A stretch of 64,000 nucleotides of DNA, taken from contig NZ_BLJA01000001.1 of assembly GCF_019972295.1 (NCBI RefSeq), positions 1,396,049-1,460,048 on the forward strand. Direction: 5' to 3'. A program made the position numbers and the translations under genes. Of the stretch, positions 28,082-62,973 are shown in pieces. Origin of the DNA: Geobacter sp. AOG2. GTDB lineage: Bacteria; Desulfobacterota; Desulfuromonadia; Geobacterales; Pseudopelobacteraceae. Each line of letters opens with the position of its first letter. Position 1 is the first letter of the stretch. The notes below the pieces were generated by a model that was not told the origin of the DNA, searched no databases, and worked only from the letters and a program-made list of their open reading frames with translations.

Positions 28082-31066
28082 TCAATCAAGCTGTTCCAGC
28101 ATAGCCACCGGAAATGACGCCAGAATATCTTTGAGTGCCAGGCTCGGCTGACCGGTCTGGCGATCAAGGGTTAACTGTTCTCCCGTGAAGATGTTGCGAT
28201 ACCTGCCGACGAGGTTACCGAAGGGTTGATTGATGCGGGTATCGCCCCAGACCTGTGGCCCAAGAGGCAGCTCATTGTAGTCATGGTGCAGGAGACGGCT
28301 GAACAGCCTTGGCGCCACCACGATGACCGAACGATTGTTGATAGAGCGCTCGAATGCACAGACATGCTCTTGGCATGACCCCTCCACAACGAGTGGCAGA
28401 TATCTGCCGGATTCGAACAGTTCACGGTTTTCCCGGCGAACGTTGAGTGCCTTGCGGGTCAGGTACAACTTTATGCGGCCGTCGTAGCGGTTCGCAACCA
28501 CCTCACGCGCCGTTTCCATGGCTCCGGTACTCGATTCCATCCGAATCAGGTCATCCAGCAGCCTTCTTCGTAAACCGAAATCCACCGGGCGGCGGTTGTC
28601 GGGGTCGACCAGGCTGAAGTCCCATAACTCATTTCCCTGGTAGAAATCGGGGATTCCCGGCGAGGCAATCTTGAGAAGGGTTTGGGAGAGGGAATTACAT
28701 ATTCCGCAGGCAGTGGTCAATCTCTGGAATTCGGCAAAGTCGCTCAGAAAATTGTTGTGACTGGATTTGGTGAGAATCAAGTCGATGAAATACATCACCG
28801 CGTCCTCATGCAGTGAGTTGGGGCTGATCCAGCTTGTATGCACCTTGGCTTCGCGCATGGCCTTCAACATGTACCCCTTGATCCTGGCACGGAATTCCGC
28901 AAACTCATCATCGCCCGGATTGCAGATAGGCCAGGCACCCACCAGCGTCTGATATAGCAGATATTCTTCATTGCGGCTTGGGGCGGGTTTGCCGTCCACA
29001 ATCATTTTGAGCTTTCGGTTCTGGCGGCCCCAGCGTGAAAGCGCCTCCCTCCACAGCTCGGGGATCTCAGAGAGCACGTTGATTCTGGCGCGGACATCTT
29101 CACTTCGCTTGGTATCATGGGTTGATGTAGTCAGCATCGCCAAGGGACGGTTCTTGTACCGTTCGATATTCTGGCCGTGGAATGCCTCCATGGTGATGCC
29201 AAACCGCTCGGGGCTTCCGCCAACCTCATTCAGGGAGGCAAGTCGGTTGTAGATGTAAAATGCGGTGTCTTCGATCCCCTTGGCCATGACCGGACCGGTT
29301 ATCTGCTGAAACCGCTTCACAAAATCAACCCACGCCGTTTTATGCTCGTTGGTCATGTTGCCGGGGAAACGGAGCAGGAGGACATCCCGGATAAACTCAA
29401 AAACAGATGCGCTGGTGGCGGGGTTTTGTCGCTTTGCCCGGCCGATGGCCGATTCTAGGTATTGCCGGTCCCGTTCAGGAACATCAAAACTGTTGATATA
29501 GGTACGGTACACCGGGAAATAGGCTATTACCTCCACAATGGCCTTGATCAGGCTGTTGAGCGTAAAGTCCCGCGTATGCCGGTTCTGTTCGGATATTTTG
29601 TTCAGGTAGTGCCCCAGGGTGTTGATTTCACTCGACATGGTGGCCTGCATGACAAGCTTTTTCTTGTCGTAGACCACCTCCGGGAAATCTATTCGGTGCT
29701 GCAGGAAGCGGGTATACAACGTTTCAAATGCTTTGGCATTGGACGTATCCACAAACAAGCCGTTCACCTGGTTGACAAAGTCGTAGCCGGTGGTGCCGAA
29801 TACCTGCCAACCATCCGGCAGCTTCTCGCCTTTCAGAAGGATTTTTTCCCCAACAATATAAAACGGTTTGTACGAAGGGTCTGCGGCAACAATCAGATCA
29901 TATTTTTCATGTGCGGCAGTTTCAGTATCCTCTTCATTGCCCGTAAGCTGAAGCTCGTCGGGGGCGCCACCATACATCTGATTGAAACAGCCCGATTGAA
30001 GCCGTCTGATATAGTCTTCCGGATCCTGCAAGCCGTCGGCGTGGTCAATGCGCAAGCCATTGATCTTTCCCGTTGCCACGAGCGAAAAGATCAGCCGGTG
30101 GGTCAGTTCGAAAACGGCAGGGTCCTCCATCCTGATGGCACCGAGGGAGTTTATATCGAAGAATCTACGGTAGTTGATCTCCTCGGTAGCGACGCGCCAA
30201 TGGGAAATGCGATAGACCTGCTCACGAAGCAGCGCGTCCAACTGGTCAAAACTGCGCGGGTTGCCTTTAGTCCCGTTGAAGCTAACCACATTGCCGTCAA
30301 TGAACTCCCTGATAGCCCCGCTGTTTTGGTACAGATTCCAGAGGCGCCGCTTGACGACCTCCTTTTCGCGATAGCGTTCTGTGATCAACTCCGGATTTTG
30401 TTCCGTGGTGGGCGGCAGGTGCCGGAGCGCCGTTACGATGCTCATGAGTTCCTGAAACTGTGGAGCGGCCGGGGAGAGTTCCTGTTCCAGTCCTTCGATG
30501 CCGAGTGTCAGGATATTGCTGTAGGTTTTTGGAATAATCGGAAGCTTGTGGTCGTAGTAGCAGGTGAAAAAAGATCCCTCCTCGAAGCATATCTGCAATT
30601 CCCTGTTTTCGAGTATGGTGCCGTACTGGTCGCCCAGGATGGGGATCAGAATCTTGTTTTCCAGCTCTTTCTTGACCGGATGCCAGTCGATATCAAAGAC
30701 ATTTGCGTAAGAAGAGCTGGGGCCATTTTCCAGTACATCCATCCAGAAAGCGTTCCCTTGCCCTTCGATGCACATATGATTCGGGACAATATCGAGGATT
30801 TGTCCCATCCCCCATTGTTTCAGTTCGCCGACCAACGCGTCGAATTCATCCTCGGAGCCGATTTCAGGGTTCAGACTGTTCTGGTCCAGGATGTCATAAC
30901 CGTGGAGGCTGCCTTCCCGTGCCTTGAAGTAAGGTGATGCATAGATGTGGCTGATGCCGATGGCATGCAGATAGGGAATGATTTCCCTGGCATCGTTGAA
31001 GCGGAAGTGCGAATTGAACTGAAGGCGGTAGGTTGCTGCCGGTACTCTAAGCCCCGTGCCGTTCAT
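28082..31066 (-). CDS. treY: Maltooligosyltrehalose synthase
   Basis: This 994-residue GH13 enzyme converts the reducing end of a maltodextrin to a trehalose linkage. The start, VPAATYRLQFNSHFRF, and the motifs GLRIDHADGLQDPEDY (nucleophile Asp), FYIVGEKILLKGEKLPDGW (acid/base Glu) and TSTHDTKRSEDVRARI are diagnostic. It is longer than the roughly 720-residue archaeal enzymes. The start is ATGA-coupled to the GH57 gene, with GGGAGGA upstream. TreZ, encoded two genes upstream, releases the trehalose. Confidence 0.95.
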   Translation of the reverse strand: MNGTGLRVPAATYRLQFNSHFRFNDAREIIPYLHAIGISHIYASPYFKAREGSLHGYDILDQNSLNPEIGSEDEFDALVGELKQWGMGQILDIVPNHMCIEGQGNAFWMDVLENGPSSSYANVFDIDWHPVKKELENKILIPILGDQYGTILENRELQICFEEGSFFTCYYDHKLPIIPKTYSNILTLGIEGLEQELSPAAPQFQELMSIVTALRHLPPTTEQNPELITERYREKEVVKRRLWNLYQNSGAIREFIDGNVVSFNGTKGNPRSFDQLDALLREQVYRISHWRVATEEINYRRFFDINSLGAIRMEDPAVFELTHRLIFSLVATGKINGLRIDHADGLQDPEDYIRRLQSGCFNQMYGGAPDELQLTGNEEDTETAAHEKYDLIVAADPSYKPFYIVGEKILLKGEKLPDGWQVFGTTGYDFVNQVNGLFVDTSNAKAFETLYTRFLQHRIDFPEVVYDKKKLVMQATMSSEINTLGHYLNKISEQNRHTRDFTLNSLIKAIVEVIAYFPVYRTYINSFDVPERDRQYLESAIGRAKRQNPATSASVFEFIRDVLLLRFPGNMTNEHKTAWVDFVKRFQQITGPVMAKGIEDTAFYIYNRLASLNEVGGSPERFGITMEAFHGQNIERYKNRPLAMLTTSTHDTKRSEDVRARINVLSEIPELWREALSRWGRQNRKLKMIVDGKPAPSRNEEYLLYQTLVGAWPICNPGDDEFAEFRARIKGYMLKAMREAKVHTSWISPNSLHEDAVMYFIDLILTKSSHNNFLSDFAEFQRLTTACGICNSLSQTLLKIASPGIPDFYQGNELWDFSLVDPDNRRPVDFGLRRRLLDDLIRMESSTGAMETAREVVANRYDGRIKLYLTRKALNVRRENRELFESGRYLPLVVEGSCQEHVCAFERSINNRSVIVVAPRLFSRLLHHDYNELPLGPQVWGDTRINQPFGNLVGRYRNIFTGEQLTLDRQTGQPSLALKDILASFPVAMLEQLD

Positions 31067-56516: not shown

Positions 56517-58310
56517 ATGAGTGACATTCTGGAAAGAAGGGAGTATGGGCCTTTCGTATTGGCCCTACTCTCTTTTCTCACCGGCATCATTGCCGGTTGC
56601 GGAGCATTCCTGTTTCGATCTTTGATTGCTTGTTTTCATAATCTGTTTTTTTACGGCACGTTTTCATTTTCTTATGATGCCAATATCCATATGGCCCCAA
56701 GCCCTTGGGGAGCACTTATAATTTTCGTTCCGGTTATCGGTGCTGTCATTGTCGTATATTTGGTCAGGAATTTTGCTCCAGAAGCAAAGGGACATGGGGT
56801 CCCTGAGGTGATGGATGCAATCTACTACAATAGTGGAGTCATCCGGCCCATGGTTGCAGTCGTGAAATCGCTTGCTTCCGCCATTTCAATAGGCAGTGGC
56901 GGTTCTGTGGGGCGGGAGGGTCCGATTGCCCAGATAGGGTCAGCCTTTGGATCCACACTTGGACAAATGCTGCGGGTCAGTCTTTGGCAATGTAACGTCC
57001 TTATCGCCGCAGGAGCGGGAGGTGGTATCGCCGCAACATTCAATACCCCTCTGGGCGGCCTTCTCTTTGCGGTTGAAATACTGCTCTATGAGGTAAGCGT
57101 CAGAACCCTGGTCCCGGTAATTATTGCCACCGCATCGGCAACTTATATCGGTCAGCTCTTTTTTGGCACTTATCCGGCTTTTAAAATTCCAGCCCTTGAA
57201 TCCCCCTTCTTTCATCTCGACAATCCGCCAGTACTTATCGCCTATATTGGGTTGGGTATTACGATGGGGGTGGTATCAGCCATCTTCATAAGAACTTTCT
57301 ATGGTATCGAGGACCTCTTTGAAAGACGGTTCCCCGGCAATGACTATGTACGCCACATAACCGGAATGTTCATTGTCGGCTTCATGTTCATGATACTTAT
57401 GAGGTATACAGGACACTATTACATTGAAGGAGTCGGCTACGCAACGATTCAGGACATCCTTACGATGACCCTTCATGGGGCGGGCTTTCTTCTCATTTTG
57501 TTGGCGATGAAACTGGTTGCTACGGCCCTCACGATCGGATCAGGTGGTTCAGGAGGAATTTTCTCACCGTCCCTATTTATCGGGGCAGCCTTCGGAGGGG
57601 CCTATGGTATCGTTATCAATCAATTTTTTCCGAACATGGGGATAATAGCTCCCGCATTTGTCGTGGCGGGAATGGCTGGAAGCGTTGGTGGGGTGACTGG
57701 GGCGGCCCTGACAGCAATCGTGATGACTCTGGAGATGACCCTTGACTACAGCGTGGTGATTCCTGTGACTATAACCGTCGCAATCAGCTTTGGTGTAAGG
57801 AAACTCCTCTGCAGGGAGAGCATCTACACCATGAAGCTTGCCAGACGTGGCCATGTGATGCCGGATGCGCTTCATTCGACTCTTCATAACCTGAGAAGGG
57901 CGGAAGAGATTATGGAGACTCGGTTCACCGCGATACCACCGGGTCTTTCCATTCACAAACTGGCTGAGCTGGTTCAGGATGAGCCCGATACTCAGTGGTT
58001 TCTCATCACAGACGCGGAAGAACTGGTTGGCCTGTTATCGCGGGAAGCGGCCCTCGAAGCGGTGGTCTCCAGGTCGGGTGCGGAAAATGTGGAATCCGCC
58101 TCATCGCTTAGTTTTATAATCGTGAGGGAAGATATTCTATTTTACAATATCATTGTGCGGATGCACCTTGCCAATGCCGCAGCGGCATTAGTGGTTCGGG
58201 ATGAAGCATTGCAGCCTGGAAACGTGGTTGGCGTTATCGGCAACACCCAGATAACCAAAACGGTTGCCCAAGGAGCTGAATTTTTTCCGGTTCTGTCGGG
58301 CGGCAGATAA
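56517..58310 (+). CDS. ClC-family chloride channel/exchanger with C-terminal CBS-type domain
   Basis: This 597-residue protein has the ClC motifs KGHGVPE, GSGGSVGREGPIAQIG and GSGGSGGIFSPSLFIGA in the first ~440 residues. A soluble domain with CBS-like units follows (about 460-590; FTAIPPGLSIHKLAELVQ, WFLITDAEELVGLLSREAAL), which usually senses nucleotides or ionic strength. The segment FAVEILLYEVS has a single Glu where ClC 1 has two. It is a paralogue, not a copy, of the ClC at 50792. Confidence 0.9.
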   Translation: MSDILERREYGPFVLALLSFLTGIIAGCGAFLFRSLIACFHNLFFYGTFSFSYDANIHMAPSPWGALIIFVPVIGAVIVVYLVRNFAPEAKGHGVPEVMDAIYYNSGVIRPMVAVVKSLASAISIGSGGSVGREGPIAQIGSAFGSTLGQMLRVSLWQCNVLIAAGAGGGIAATFNTPLGGLLFAVEILLYEVSVRTLVPVIIATASATYIGQLFFGTYPAFKIPALESPFFHLDNPPVLIAYIGLGITMGVVSAIFIRTFYGIEDLFERRFPGNDYVRHITGMFIVGFMFMILMRYTGHYYIEGVGYATIQDILTMTLHGAGFLLILLAMKLVATALTIGSGGSGGIFSPSLFIGAAFGGAYGIVINQFFPNMGIIAPAFVVAGMAGSVGGVTGAALTAIVMTLEMTLDYSVVIPVTITVAISFGVRKLLCRESIYTMKLARRGHVMPDALHSTLHNLRRAEEIMETRFTAIPPGLSIHKLAELVQDEPDTQWFLITDAEELVGLLSREAALEAVVSRSGAENVESASSLSFIIVREDILFYNIIVRMHLANAAAALVVRDEALQPGNVVGVIGNTQITKTVAQGAEFFPVLSGGR

Positions 58311-58421: not shown

Positions 58422-58913
58422 CTACAAAGGCTTAGGCACATTTACCTCGGGTGACATAATCAATTGAGGAGGAATTTCCTGTGCCCCCAAAATCTTAACA
58501 AACTGTTCCAGTCCGTCGTATATGTTTATCAGTTGCGCGTCCGTTAGAGCTTCAAGTCCACCGACAAGAAGTTCTTGGGCCACATTTGGAGATTGGCTGA
58601 CTTTTTCGTTCCCGAGAGGGGTAAGCGCAAGTTCGACAACCCGCCTGTCCTTGGTTGACCTTGTCCTTTCGACCAACCCCCTTGCTTCGAGTCGATCAAT
58701 AATACCGACAACCGTCGCAGGATGTAAATACATCTTGCGAGCCAAATCAGAAAGCTTGATCGGAGCAATTTCGGACATCACTTTGATCGCCCAAAGTTGC
58801 GGTCCGGTTAACCCCGTCTCGTGTTCGGCCCTTTTCGACTGTTCATTGACGACCTGAAATACGCGCCGCAAATTATCGATTATGCCCGCCACCAGTTCCG
58901 GTGTAGCTTTCAT
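58422..58913 (-). CDS. MarR-family transcriptional regulator (copy 2)
   Basis: This winged-helix protein of about 163 residues has the recognition region LSDLARKMYLHPATVVGIIDRLEARGLVERTRSTKDRRVVELALT. It is paralogous to the MarR at 49385, with an extra C-terminal tail. The ATG at 58913, preceded by AGGGAG, is preferred to a GTG at 58934. A perfect 8-bp inverted repeat (58937-58957) lies 23 bases upstream and is a good autoregulatory operator. Confidence 0.9.
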   Translation of the reverse strand: MKATPELVAGIIDNLRRVFQVVNEQSKRAEHETGLTGPQLWAIKVMSEIAPIKLSDLARKMYLHPATVVGIIDRLEARGLVERTRSTKDRRVVELALTPLGNEKVSQSPNVAQELLVGGLEALTDAQLINIYDGLEQFVKILGAQEIPPQLIMSPEVNVPKPL

Positions 58914-58936
58914 TCCAAACTCCCTTGCCAACACGT

Positions 58937-59034: not shown

Positions 59035-59826
59035 TCATTCCTCATGCGTGCTTTCACCTTCAAATCGATGTAATTCCAGAATTCCGATCATTGAATTGAG
59101 GAGTCCGGTCAGTTCCGATTGCTTGGAAAGATAATACGGCGCAGCCGTCTGATCGTCCTCGCCGATATGAATGCCGAATACATCGACATTTCTCAGTCGA
59201 AAGACCTCTTCGTCGGTCACATCATCTCCGAAAAATATTGCCCTTTTTAACCCGAAGATATCCATGGCGGCCACAAGTGCCTCTCCTTTGGTAAAGGCTT
59301 CCATTGGTAACAGGTTGATCACATATTTGCCGCCTATCCTCCTTGGGCTGGGCTTGAGGTCCCTAATCGCGGCATCTATAAGCGAGAGGGTGTTCGCCTG
59401 GTCGGTTGCCTTGCGATAATGGATGGAAAGCGATGCCCCCTTGAACTCGATTTCCACTCCATTTATGCCGTTAAGACGCTCATGGAGCTGATCTTGCCAG
59501 GCACTGCTCCATTGCCTGAATTGAGGATTCTGCAGATATGAATCAGCCGGCCATTCTGCACCGTGGTTGCCGATGACCAATTGCGGTTCAACACCGAGAA
59601 TGTCCAAGGCATCTTGTCGCGCTCTCCCCGTAATAACGCAGAACTTCGCCAGTTTGACAAATTTATCCAAAGTAGTTCGCATCGGTTCGACAATCCGGGC
59701 TGCGGAATAATCGTCAACTATCGGTGCCAGCGTGCCGTCGAGGTCGAAGGCGAACAGGGTGTCAGGAGCCACATAGCCGGCAAGGGCAGCAAGTCCCTCC
59801 GAATGAAATAAGTATGATGAAGTCAT
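59035..59826 (-). CDS. otsB: Trehalose-6-phosphate phosphatase
   Basis: This 263-residue HAD-superfamily enzyme has the nucleophile motif FAFDLDGTLAPIVDD, the CVITGRAR motif II region, and FFGDDVTDEEVF with the Mg2+-binding acids. It removes phosphate from trehalose 6-phosphate. The ATG at 59826 overlaps the otsA stop (59823) and has GGGAGGAAAGG upstream. It is expressed with the membrane-fused otsA. Confidence 0.93.
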   Translation of the reverse strand: MTSSYLFHSEGLAALAGYVAPDTLFAFDLDGTLAPIVDDYSAARIVEPMRTTLDKFVKLAKFCVITGRARQDALDILGVEPQLVIGNHGAEWPADSYLQNPQFRQWSSAWQDQLHERLNGINGVEIEFKGASLSIHYRKATDQANTLSLIDAAIRDLKPSPRRIGGKYVINLLPMEAFTKGEALVAAMDIFGLKRAIFFGDDVTDEEVFRLRNVDVFGIHIGEDDQTAAPYYLSKQSELTGLLNSMIGILELHRFEGESTHEE

Positions 59827-62072
59827 CCTTTCCTCCCTATCCTGGTAGCTAATTTTTCCCGCTGGCGAACACGGGCCGCATCCAGAAGCATCCTGCCGGC
59901 CCATCGGTAGACATTGAAATCGCGAACCAGCGCCCGCATACTGTGCATGCGTTCGCGTTGCTCGAAGTCGGGCATGGTGAGCGCGCGATACAGCGCCTCA
60001 GCCGTCTGTTCGATATGGTAGGGGTTAACGATGAGCGCTTCGTGCAATTCATGGGCAGCACCGGTAAACTGACTTAGGATCAGCACCCCCAGCTCATCGT
60101 CACGGGAGGCTACAAATTCTTTCGCCACCAGATTCATCCCGTCGTGAAGACTTGTCACCATGCAGACGTCCGCTGCCCGGTAGTAATGGTTCACCTCTTC
60201 GGGTTCGTGATGTTCCGCTTTGAGGTAGATCGGTTGCCAGCTCCCGTACGAGAAGCGTTGGTTGATGCTTGTGGCCAAGCCCCGGACCTGTGATTCGAAC
60301 GCTTGGTAGTCTTCAAGTGCCGAGCGGGTTGGTGCAGCAATCTGGATAAAGGTAAAGCGTCCCGCCATCTCGGGATAGAGTTCCAACAGCTTTTCAACGG
60401 CTCTGAAGCGCTCAAGTATTCCTTTTGTATAGTCCATCCGATCCACGCCGAGCCCTATTTTGTGATCCGGCAGGAGCCCAAACGCCTTGCGTATTTTCGC
60501 CCGGCAACTCTCAACGGTCGGCTGCGAATCTCGCCAGGGCGGGGGCCACTGGATCGAGATCGGATAGCTTTCCACCATCGTCAGTTTGCCGTGACGGGAA
60601 ATCGTGGAAGATTCGTGCTCGATGCGTGTTTCCAGGTAGCGGTCCACGGTTTCAAGAAAGTTCTTGCAATGGAAGGGGGTATGGAATCCAAGAATTGTGC
60701 TGCCGAGCATCCCCTGCAATAACGCCTCTCTCCAGGGGCAGATGCCAAAGGATTCCGGGTTGGGCCAGGGGATGTGCCAGAAGGTGATAATAGTTGCCTT
60801 GGGGAGCGCTTTACGGATCATTCCCGGTAGCAGTGCAAGGTGATAGTCCTGAACCAGAATAACCGGATCGTCGCTGTCCGCTTCTTTGGCCACCGCGTCG
60901 GCAAATCGCTGATTGATGGCCACATATTGTTTCCAATCGCTGGAACGGAAAATGGGGCGTACGTGAGCAATATGGCAGAGCGGCCAAAGCCCCTCATTGG
61001 CAAAGCCGTAGTAATAACCGTTTTCCTCTTCTTTGGTTAGCCAGATCCGCCGTAGCGTATATTCGGGGTGCTCCGGGGGAACCTGAACCCGATCATGGCG
61101 ATCAACAGTCTCACGGTCGCCCGAACCGCTGCCATGGGCGATCCAGGTGCCGGAACAGGCCCGCATGACCGGTTCAACTGCCGTCACCAAGCCGCTTGCG
61201 GGGCGATTGACCTCGATCCGTTCCTCTTTTTTGATATGGATGTATGGTTCTCGATTGGATACGACGATAATCCGTTCACCGGTGAGTTGTTTATGCAGGA
61301 GTTGCCGTAGGGAGTCAGGACTCCATGTAATGGTCGCGTCATCGGCAAATCGCCGCTCGGTATCGATCGCCCGTAGGAGTGTGCGCAGATCCCCCACGAG
61401 CGGCTGTAATTCAGAAGCTACCGCAGGTTGGGAAAACGGCTTGAGTATGCCTTCGCCGCGCAGCATGGCCCGTACGCCGTCCATCCAACCGCGCCAGCTC
61501 AGATGAGCGACAAATACCGTGATGACTGAGATGACAACCCCGAGTAGCGCAAAGACGATAATAATATATTTGCGGGTATCGGCACTGCGGCGCTCGACGA
61601 AACTCATGTCGTGAACGAGAATCAGGGAGCCGTTTTTTTGTCCCCCATCCTGTACCATTGGATAAACGGCCACATGAACCGACCCTTGGGGAAGTTGGTG
61701 AAGAGGAGGACTTACCGACTTATCGTCTTTTAATACGGCAGATGAGCAGGAAAGGGATTCCGGAAAGGTCGGCGTGCGATAGAGAAGCTTGCCATCGCCA
61801 TCACAGTAACCAAGAGCCAGCAGGCGCTCGTCCTGTATGACCCGGAGCAGAAGGGCATTGATCTTGGCTTTGTTTCCCTGCTGGAGAAGCTCGGCCAGCG
61901 GGTCATGCAGCGTGTTGGCAATCAGGCGGGAGCGGATATCCATATCACGAATGGCCCAACGCATGGTAAGCTTGTCAACCAGGGGTACCACCGCATAGGC
62001 AAGTAGTGTCAGTGCGATGACGAGAGGCAAGATGAAGCGCAGTGACAGGCGAAGGGATCGTAGAGTCGACAT
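59823..62072 (-). CDS. otsA: Membrane-anchored trehalose-6-phosphate synthase with N-terminal sensor-like module
   Basis: This 749-residue protein is unusual. Residues 12-34 and 168-190 are membrane helices flanking a periplasmic domain of about 130 residues, as in sensor kinases and chemoreceptors. A linker (191-260) leads to a complete GT20 synthase (about 266-740) with VVSNREPY, VQDYHLALLPG, FWHIPWPNPESF, GVDRMDYTKGILERF and SLHDGMNLVAKEF. E. coli OtsA (474 residues) is only the catalytic part. It joins UDP-glucose and glucose 6-phosphate, and the module may tune activity to an external signal; this is inference. The otsB gene follows with an overlap. Confidence 0.92.
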   Translation of the reverse strand: MSTLRSLRLSLRFILPLVIALTLLAYAVVPLVDKLTMRWAIRDMDIRSRLIANTLHDPLAELLQQGNKAKINALLLRVIQDERLLALGYCDGDGKLLYRTPTFPESLSCSSAVLKDDKSVSPPLHQLPQGSVHVAVYPMVQDGGQKNGSLILVHDMSFVERRSADTRKYIIIVFALLGVVISVITVFVAHLSWRGWMDGVRAMLRGEGILKPFSQPAVASELQPLVGDLRTLLRAIDTERRFADDATITWSPDSLRQLLHKQLTGERIIVVSNREPYIHIKKEERIEVNRPASGLVTAVEPVMRACSGTWIAHGSGSGDRETVDRHDRVQVPPEHPEYTLRRIWLTKEEENGYYYGFANEGLWPLCHIAHVRPIFRSSDWKQYVAINQRFADAVAKEADSDDPVILVQDYHLALLPGMIRKALPKATIITFWHIPWPNPESFGICPWREALLQGMLGSTILGFHTPFHCKNFLETVDRYLETRIEHESSTISRHGKLTMVESYPISIQWPPPWRDSQPTVESCRAKIRKAFGLLPDHKIGLGVDRMDYTKGILERFRAVEKLLELYPEMAGRFTFIQIAAPTRSALEDYQAFESQVRGLATSINQRFSYGSWQPIYLKAEHHEPEEVNHYYRAADVCMVTSLHDGMNLVAKEFVASRDDELGVLILSQFTGAAHELHEALIVNPYHIEQTAEALYRALTMPDFEQRERMHSMRALVRDFNVYRWAGRMLLDAARVRQREKLATRIGRKG

Positions 62073-62973
62073 TACCGTATTCTCCTCTTAAGTGGGTAGT
62101 CGCAGCATTTGATGAACCGGATGGCGGCGTTGGTTAATCCGGCCATACTGTGGCTCTCGACAAAATTACCTCCTGTTTTCATGTTAAAACGTCAAGGCGC
62201 CTGGCAATGAGACCTTATCGACTATACCGCGCCAGTAGGTGCTTGGACTGCGGTCCTGCTTCGGTGAACCGCCCACATGGACAAGAAGTACATGGAGATA
62301 CCCATAGGTTCAAACGGCGAGGGCGTTCTCGGGGGCAACGAAGTCGTGTTTCTCGACTTAGCGAAAAAAGGAACCTCCGGCGTCCGGAGCCAGCAGCAAC
62401 CTTTGCCGATAACCGACTATTCGTTCTGCTTTCTTGGAATATGGTCGATTGCCTGGAACACCCGGCTCTAAGTTGTCGTTAATTTCCAAGGTCCCCGCTT
62501 CATTGTCCCCGAGTACAACTACTGAAACCGGCCAACATATTAATTGGTGTTACCAATTATTGGTATATAAATGATAATGGTATATCGTTATCCCGTCAAG
62601 GTTTGATTTGGCGACACAACCCAGCTTGTGTAAGATACTTGCTATGTATTATACTGAAATTATTATTTTTTACATATTGTCGTGATGCGGAACTAAAGAT
62701 GGAACGTTATGCGTTTTAGCGAATAAAACACTACACATCACCGGAACTGTGAATAGTAAAGAGGTATTTGCGATGACGCATCATGGCATTGCTGCCCTAC
62801 CAGCCAGGGGGCAGGCCCCCCACAGTAGCGTCTGCTTGCTACAATGATTAAGATGACGGATGTTTAATCGGTCTACAACATTGACATTTGGACCTCCTTG
62901 TGCCAAGCCTAGCATGGCAGTCGAACCATGGCCGACTGATAACTAAAAAATCGGTGATGAGGAAAATAGATCC
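62073..62973. other. 900-bp gap, no supported gene
   Basis: Several short open frames (for example 62277-62471 and 62150-62482) overlap each other and match nothing I know. A 24-codon frame at 62773-62847 has AGAGG before its ATG but no family and low credibility. The stretch 62520-62700 is AT-rich, with an inverted repeat at 62542, and 62807-62821 is a GGGGG/CCCCC hairpin. It may be degenerate former coding DNA plus the panE promoter. Confidence 0.5.
62542..62558. promoter_or_regulatory. Inverted repeat AATTGGT-GTT-ACCAATT
   Basis: This is a perfect 7-bp inverted repeat with a 3-base spacer. It is followed by two TGGTATAT copies about 18 bases apart (62561 and 62579). It has the look of a small-regulator operator, but no gene starts nearby except panE 416 bases away. 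Confidence 0.4.

Follow-up and report, generated by a model that had tools for sequence, protein, structure and literature searches.

A trehalose-6-phosphate synthase of Geobacter sp. AOG2 with a predicted Cache receptor module at its N terminus

A 64,000-nucleotide stretch of the Geobacter sp. AOG2 genome (the window) encodes a 749-residue trehalose-6-phosphate (T6P) synthase whose GT20 domain is preceded by a receptor-type membrane module. We propose that the protein is probably a one-component receptor-enzyme whose T6P synthesis would be adjusted by a signal from outside. Computation established the domain architecture, the Cache fold, an intact active site, the partnership with otsB, and conservation across phyla. 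Judging from sequence matches, hundreds of bacteria in several phyla keep the fusion.

RESULTS

Gene and domain layout

The synthase open reading frame (ORF; 62072-59823, minus strand) starts with ATG, and the bases 5′ of it, AAGAGGAGA, resemble a ribosome binding site. Hydropathy analysis revealed two clear membrane segments, with peaks at residues 14 to 32 and 170 to 188. Because the start of the protein is rich in arginine, its N terminus is predicted to be cytoplasmic. Residues 1 to 265 were modeled with AlphaFold together with 56 homologues (mean pLDDT of 86.9), and a full-length model was in agreement. The model contains helices at residues 2 to 65 and 68 to 81, strands at 84 to 91, 96 to 99, 124 to 127, 130 to 140, and 146 to 155, and further helices at 157 to 204, 220 to 247, and 252 to 263; residues 68 to 155 make up a mixed alpha/beta domain.

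The initial annotation had described two membrane helices enclosing a periplasmic domain of ~130 residues, followed by a linker of ~70 residues and an intact GT20 domain. This layout was confirmed throughout: hydropathy and the AlphaFold helices agree on both membrane helices, the periplasmic domain spans residues 35 to 166, ~74 residues separate the second helix (TM2) from GT20, and every catalytic residue tested is present. A chance fusion or a frame error was ruled out, since full-length homologues include the N-terminal part and the periplasmic part is under purifying selection (see below). Features are listed in Table 1.

Table 1. Features of the synthase gene and otsB, in window coordinates
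Feature	Residues	Position	Strand	Basis
Membrane receptor-type T6P synthase, whole gene	749 aa	59823..62072	-	ORF, GT20 match, full-length homologues
Transmembrane helix 1 (TM1)	12-34	61971..62039	-	Hydropathy; AlphaFold helix 2-65
Periplasmic single Cache/extracytoplasmic PAS domain (predicted)	35-166	61575..61970	-	AlphaFold; WalK, CusS, CitA fold matches
Cys90, invariant in 56 aligned subfamily I members	90	61803..61805	-	Alignment
Cys109, invariant in 56 aligned subfamily I members	109	61746..61748	-	Alignment
Transmembrane helix 2 (TM2)	167-191	61500..61574	-	Hydropathy; AlphaFold helix 157-204
Degenerate HAMP-like helix-loop-helix	192-247	61332..61499	-	AlphaFold helices; sister-subfamily HAMP alignment
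Conserved pre-catalytic helix W250/P252/L255/L259	248-265	61278..61331	-	Alignment
GT20 T6P synthase domain	266-737	59862..61277	-	Pfam; catalytic residues invariant
otsB, T6P phosphatase		59035..59826	-	Pfam PF02358, E 1e-19

The GT20 domain and its product

Residues 267 to 731 match Pfam GT20 (PF00982; E value of 1.9e-122; 409.8 bits, against a curated cutoff of 32.5). This is the sole GT20 match of the AOG2 genome, and T6P synthases in the PDB are relatives of the domain. R274, W363, D409, H433, R545, K550, D644, N647, and E652 are all there and do not vary across 56 homologues; we take the tested sites to equate to R9, W85, D130, H154, R262, K267, D361, and E369 of E. coli OtsA. The NCBIfam OtsA equivalog TIGR02400 scores 415 bits, below its curated cutoff of 564.85, and the protein therefore belongs to GT20 but not to the curated OtsA equivalog.

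That shortfall (415 versus 565 bits) would fit a GT20 domain that makes another product, such as glucosylglycerol phosphate, or that acts as a noncatalytic regulator. We regard either role as very unlikely, given that the tested catalytic residues are all present and invariant, that the OtsA profile outscores the glucosylglycerol-phosphate synthase profile (415 versus 303 bits), and that otsB comes next with a 4-base overlap. The otsB start codon shares the bases ATGA with the synthase stop.

Neighboring genes were surveyed at the loci of the best 80 of at least 583 relatives. An ORF of the OtsB cluster was present at 48 of these 80 loci, and 20 downstream OtsB copies had the same 4-base overlap as in AOG2. 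A GH15 enzyme occurred at 41 of the 80; a representative matched Glyco_hydro_15 and a trehalase-like N-terminal domain. Neighbors of both kinds are as expected for trehalose metabolism.

Several other elements lie near the AOG2 pair. A MarR-family regulator (58422-58934, minus strand) is encoded downstream of otsB, beside the synthase-otsB pair, and a related MarR-type regulator is found at a few related loci; in two relatives, the stretches directly upstream of the synthase gene (otsA) align with each other over ~420 bases and seem to encode a MarR-like protein. A CLC-type chloride channel gene (56517-58310, plus strand) adjoins the trehalose pair, and such a gene adjoins otsA at several related loci too. 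The maltooligosyltrehalose synthase TreY is encoded at 28094-31042 (minus strand), flanked by two weaker matches, so that the genome has a second trehalose route ~30 kb from otsA-otsB. In the long otsA leader (62072-62600, minus strand), a site resembling a promoter (62599-62571) and a hairpin resembling a terminator (62389-62375) were seen, along with a Shine-Dalgarno-like AGGAGG that precedes a short TTG frame near 62163; sites of these kinds are about as frequent as chance. A search of this leader against Rfam gave no match.

The periplasmic domain

Over the periplasmic domain, pLDDT values were mostly 85 to 96, falling to about 71 near residues 111 to 120. A profile of the N-terminal module matched nothing meaningful among PDB sequences, and fold comparison was therefore needed. 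Using Foldseek and VIA-align, we found the WalK sensor domain (Z score of 12.3, rmsd of 2.6 over 122 residues), with CusS (Z score of 10.5) and CitA (Z score of 10.1) also near. On the strength of the model and these matches, the periplasmic part is confidently predicted to be ordered and to adopt a single Cache sensor fold. Disorder in this part, which the initial annotation had named as grounds for refuting its reading, was thus not borne out. The annotation had also suggested structure prediction for dCache/HAMP-like folds. The Cache assignment stood, as a single domain; a double Cache was ruled out, as the periplasmic part has only ~130 residues and forms a single alpha/beta domain, and the HAMP-like helices are present in degenerate form.

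Neither Pfam Cache model (sCache_3_2 or dCache_3) scored above its curated cutoff in the AOG2 synthase, and members of a sister subfamily (subfamily II; the AOG2 protein belongs to subfamily I) gave subthreshold matches to both (E values of 1.1e-4 and 5.2e-5, respectively). The CzcS/SilS/CopS kinase profile TIGR01386 matches residues 6 to 191 of the AOG2 synthase (E value of 6.6e-6), and the NCBIfam WalK profile is colinear with sister-subfamily members over TM1-Cache-TM2-HAMP (E values of 2.2e-11 to 7.3e-5). The receptor-like nature of the membrane module, as first described, is thus upheld by fold and, through the sister subfamily, by sequence; the HAMP part is degenerate here.

D81, R83, C90, C109, and D155 are invariant in 56 aligned subfamily I members. 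The two cysteines, which may be disulfide or metal partners, are not kept in subfamily II, though the module is common to both. Compared with the enzyme, the periplasmic part has diverged more quickly (median identity of 45% versus 68%). Its dN/dS ratio of about 0.15 to 0.18, compared with 0.04 to 0.08 for the enzyme, indicates purifying selection, all these figures being rough because silent sites are near saturation.

Among the nearest characterized relatives of the module, the cues sensed are small molecules, metals, or the state of the cell wall. As the initial annotation suggested, the receptor-enzyme could in particular be an osmosensor, a narrower version whose likelihood overlaps with that of the general proposal; it would perceive osmolarity or membrane tension directly and switch trehalose synthesis on. 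The output is an osmolyte pathway, and a role in osmotolerance is proposed for the Geobacter enzyme (PMC2700814). Even so, we think this version rather unlikely: WalK and heavy-metal sensor kinases are the nearest relatives by profile, the invariant cysteines would fit a redox or metal cue no less than an osmotic one, and nothing beyond the product points to an osmolarity cue. Moreover, Cache and PAS domains are described as sensors of small molecules (PMC4822843).

The linker and the pre-catalytic helix

AlphaFold places a helix-loop-helix after TM2 in the AOG2 synthase. Pfam HAMP was not found in any of the 56 subfamily I members, and in single comparisons a subfamily I profile of residues 192 to 247 matched HAMP with an E value of 0.006, versus 0.012 for a control helix. 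A HAMP assignment from this subfamily alone was dropped, being indistinguishable from the control. The sister-subfamily profile aligned with HAMP domains from the AOG2 genome over 48 of 53 columns (E value of 2.1e-6), and the two subfamilies combined gave an E value of 1.7e-5. This alignment of the sister subfamily with genuine HAMP domains supports a HAMP ancestry for the linker, with the AOG2 copy apparently degenerate. Matches to Pfam Adeno_E3B among the 56 members look like membrane-helix artifacts.

Between the linker and GT20 lies a conserved helix in which W250, L255, and L259 are invariant and P252 is at least 90% conserved among the 56 members; W250 and L255 are also invariant across both subfamilies. 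Residues 248 to 265 are a possible coupling element.

Distribution and history of the fusion

Within the taxonomic family of AOG2, 39 of 76 genomes had a match, and all matches but one cover the module, fragments included; the exception (G025) is a soluble bifunctional enzyme. Across the phylum, GT20 occurs in 165 of 395 genomes and the module in about 31. A scan of GTDB genomes returned at least 583 relatives, the best 80 of which are about 56 to 85% identical and near full length, N-terminal part included. Record labels comprise Geobacter, Burkholderiales, Nitrospira, Deltaproteobacteria (Myxococcota), Acidobacteria, Bdellovibrionota, and Gemmatimonadetes; many fusion-carrying records are metagenome bins.

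In a tree of 64 GT20 domains, subfamily I, subfamily II (present in the same phylum as AOG2), and a homologue from an Aminobacter plasmid formed one clade (support of 100/97), with soluble and bifunctional GT20 enzymes falling outside. The phylum's soluble and bifunctional GT20 enzymes, of which about 48 were examined, showed no N-terminal membrane helix. The Aminobacter homologue (L202, 3962-5782; 606 residues) has one membrane helix, neither Cache nor HAMP, and a similar version of the pre-catalytic motif; its place in the tree is next to subfamily I, within the membrane clade. Since subfamily II, which lies outside that pairing, has the full module, loss of Cache and HAMP in Aminobacter is the simpler reading.

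This homologue demonstrates that the enzyme can be membrane-anchored and lack a sensor, which makes it a natural case for telling the two roles apart, and anchoring accordingly stays a rival: the N-terminal module could serve mainly to place trehalose synthesis on the inner membrane, where an exporter, the GH15 enzyme, or the envelope would be close by, with sensing lost or minor. That a protein beside subfamily I has retained the pre-catalytic motif along with a single membrane helix is in keeping with such a role, as is the degenerate HAMP signature of the window's subfamily. An anchor, however, has no need of a ~130-residue Cache domain with five invariant residues under purifying selection, and the module, cysteines aside, is kept in both subfamilies. 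We therefore consider anchoring unlikely as the main function.

Relatives of the module with other outputs

The module profile was run on two genome sets, 198 from the phylum to which a Nitrospira member belongs and 300 from the order of a Janthinobacterium member. Strong matches occurred in 42 and 21 genomes, respectively, the great majority lying in frames about as long as the synthase or longer, with a few shorter. Elsewhere in both genome sets there were weak matches (E values of 1e-4 to 1e-7). Ten of these weak regions were opened and, judged from their sequence rather than by profile search, read as histidine kinases, diguanylate-type (c-di-GMP) enzymes, and one HD-GYP receptor. Among the regions examined, the next relatives of the module thus appear to be signal receptors. 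In AOG2's own genome, the module was not found on another output at an E value of 1 or better.

A 761-residue frame (G748) first taken as a third synthase type reads as an NtrY-like kinase. Six weak relatives of the module (L252, L253, L254, L257, L258, and L259) are receptors with periplasmic CxxCH-type motifs, heme c-like from sequence; the AOG2 synthase has no such motif.

DISCUSSION

We favor a receptor-enzyme because a sensor fold, kinase-profile matches, and HAMP homology by way of the sister subfamily are combined with a full active site, and because these proteins form one module-keeping clade, the periplasmic domain is under purifying selection, and the soluble and bifunctional GT20 proteins examined from the phylum have no N-terminal membrane helix. 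A HAMP that Pfam does not see and the sensorless Aminobacter homologue weigh against it. In the proposed mechanism, the single Cache domain, held by the two membrane helices, would respond to an external cue, which would pass through TM2, the degenerate HAMP-like helix pair, and helix 248 to 265 to GT20. T6P output would then be raised or lowered, and OtsB from the overlapping gene would convert T6P to trehalose. Signaling as a dimer, control of enzyme activity, and the direction of the effect are presumed in this scheme. We lean slightly toward the broader prediction that these proteins are a multiphylum class of one-component receptors with a carbohydrate-biosynthetic output, on which the external signal would act directly, without a kinase, second messenger, or transcription step. 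Given the MarR-type regulator gene beside the AOG2 pair, transcription may nonetheless play a part.

Known outputs of Cache receptors are histidine kinases, chemotaxis, cyclases, and c-di-GMP. In a survey of Cache domains, outputs were all known signal transduction ones, bar one family, and trehalose is not mentioned in its main text (PMC4822843). In PMC2700814, GSU2337 of Geobacter sulfurreducens is presented as a T6P synthase in which one domain shares 37% identity with the M. tuberculosis enzyme, paired with the phosphatase GSU2336; osmotolerance is inferred there, and the passage on this pair mentions neither a membrane or sensor part nor an experiment. By its description, GSU2337 is probably an orthologue of the AOG2 synthase, and no other paper naming a probable orthologue was found. 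Our search, mostly of nonsubscription papers, found no account of a T6P synthase fused to a membrane or sensor part and no experiments on any fusion member.

If the receptor-enzyme reading is right, an outside signal directly controls a metabolic pathway, in a widely conserved system with an osmolyte-making output. One protein and a coupled enzyme assay would make a compact, assayable system for transmembrane signaling, and the annotation of hundreds of genes, likely now plain T6P synthase, would be corrected.

Compared with known systems, the AOG2 protein shares the GT20 domain, the catalytic residues, and the otsB partner with soluble OtsA, whose relatives in the phylum lack a membrane helix ahead of GT20, and adds a 265-residue receptor module. 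Bifunctional OtsA-OtsB fusions likewise bring GT20 and phosphatase together, as the AOG2 otsA-otsB pair does, but their fused partner is the phosphatase; they have no sensor and fall outside the membrane clade. CusS/CzcS metal-sensing kinases resemble the module by fold and through TIGR01386 and differ in output. The WalK (YycG) histidine kinase has the TM1-Cache-TM2-HAMP order in common, together with the closest fold and the sister-subfamily profile match; its output is HisKA/HATPase, whereas that of the AOG2 synthase is GT20, reached through a HAMP that is degenerate in its subfamily.
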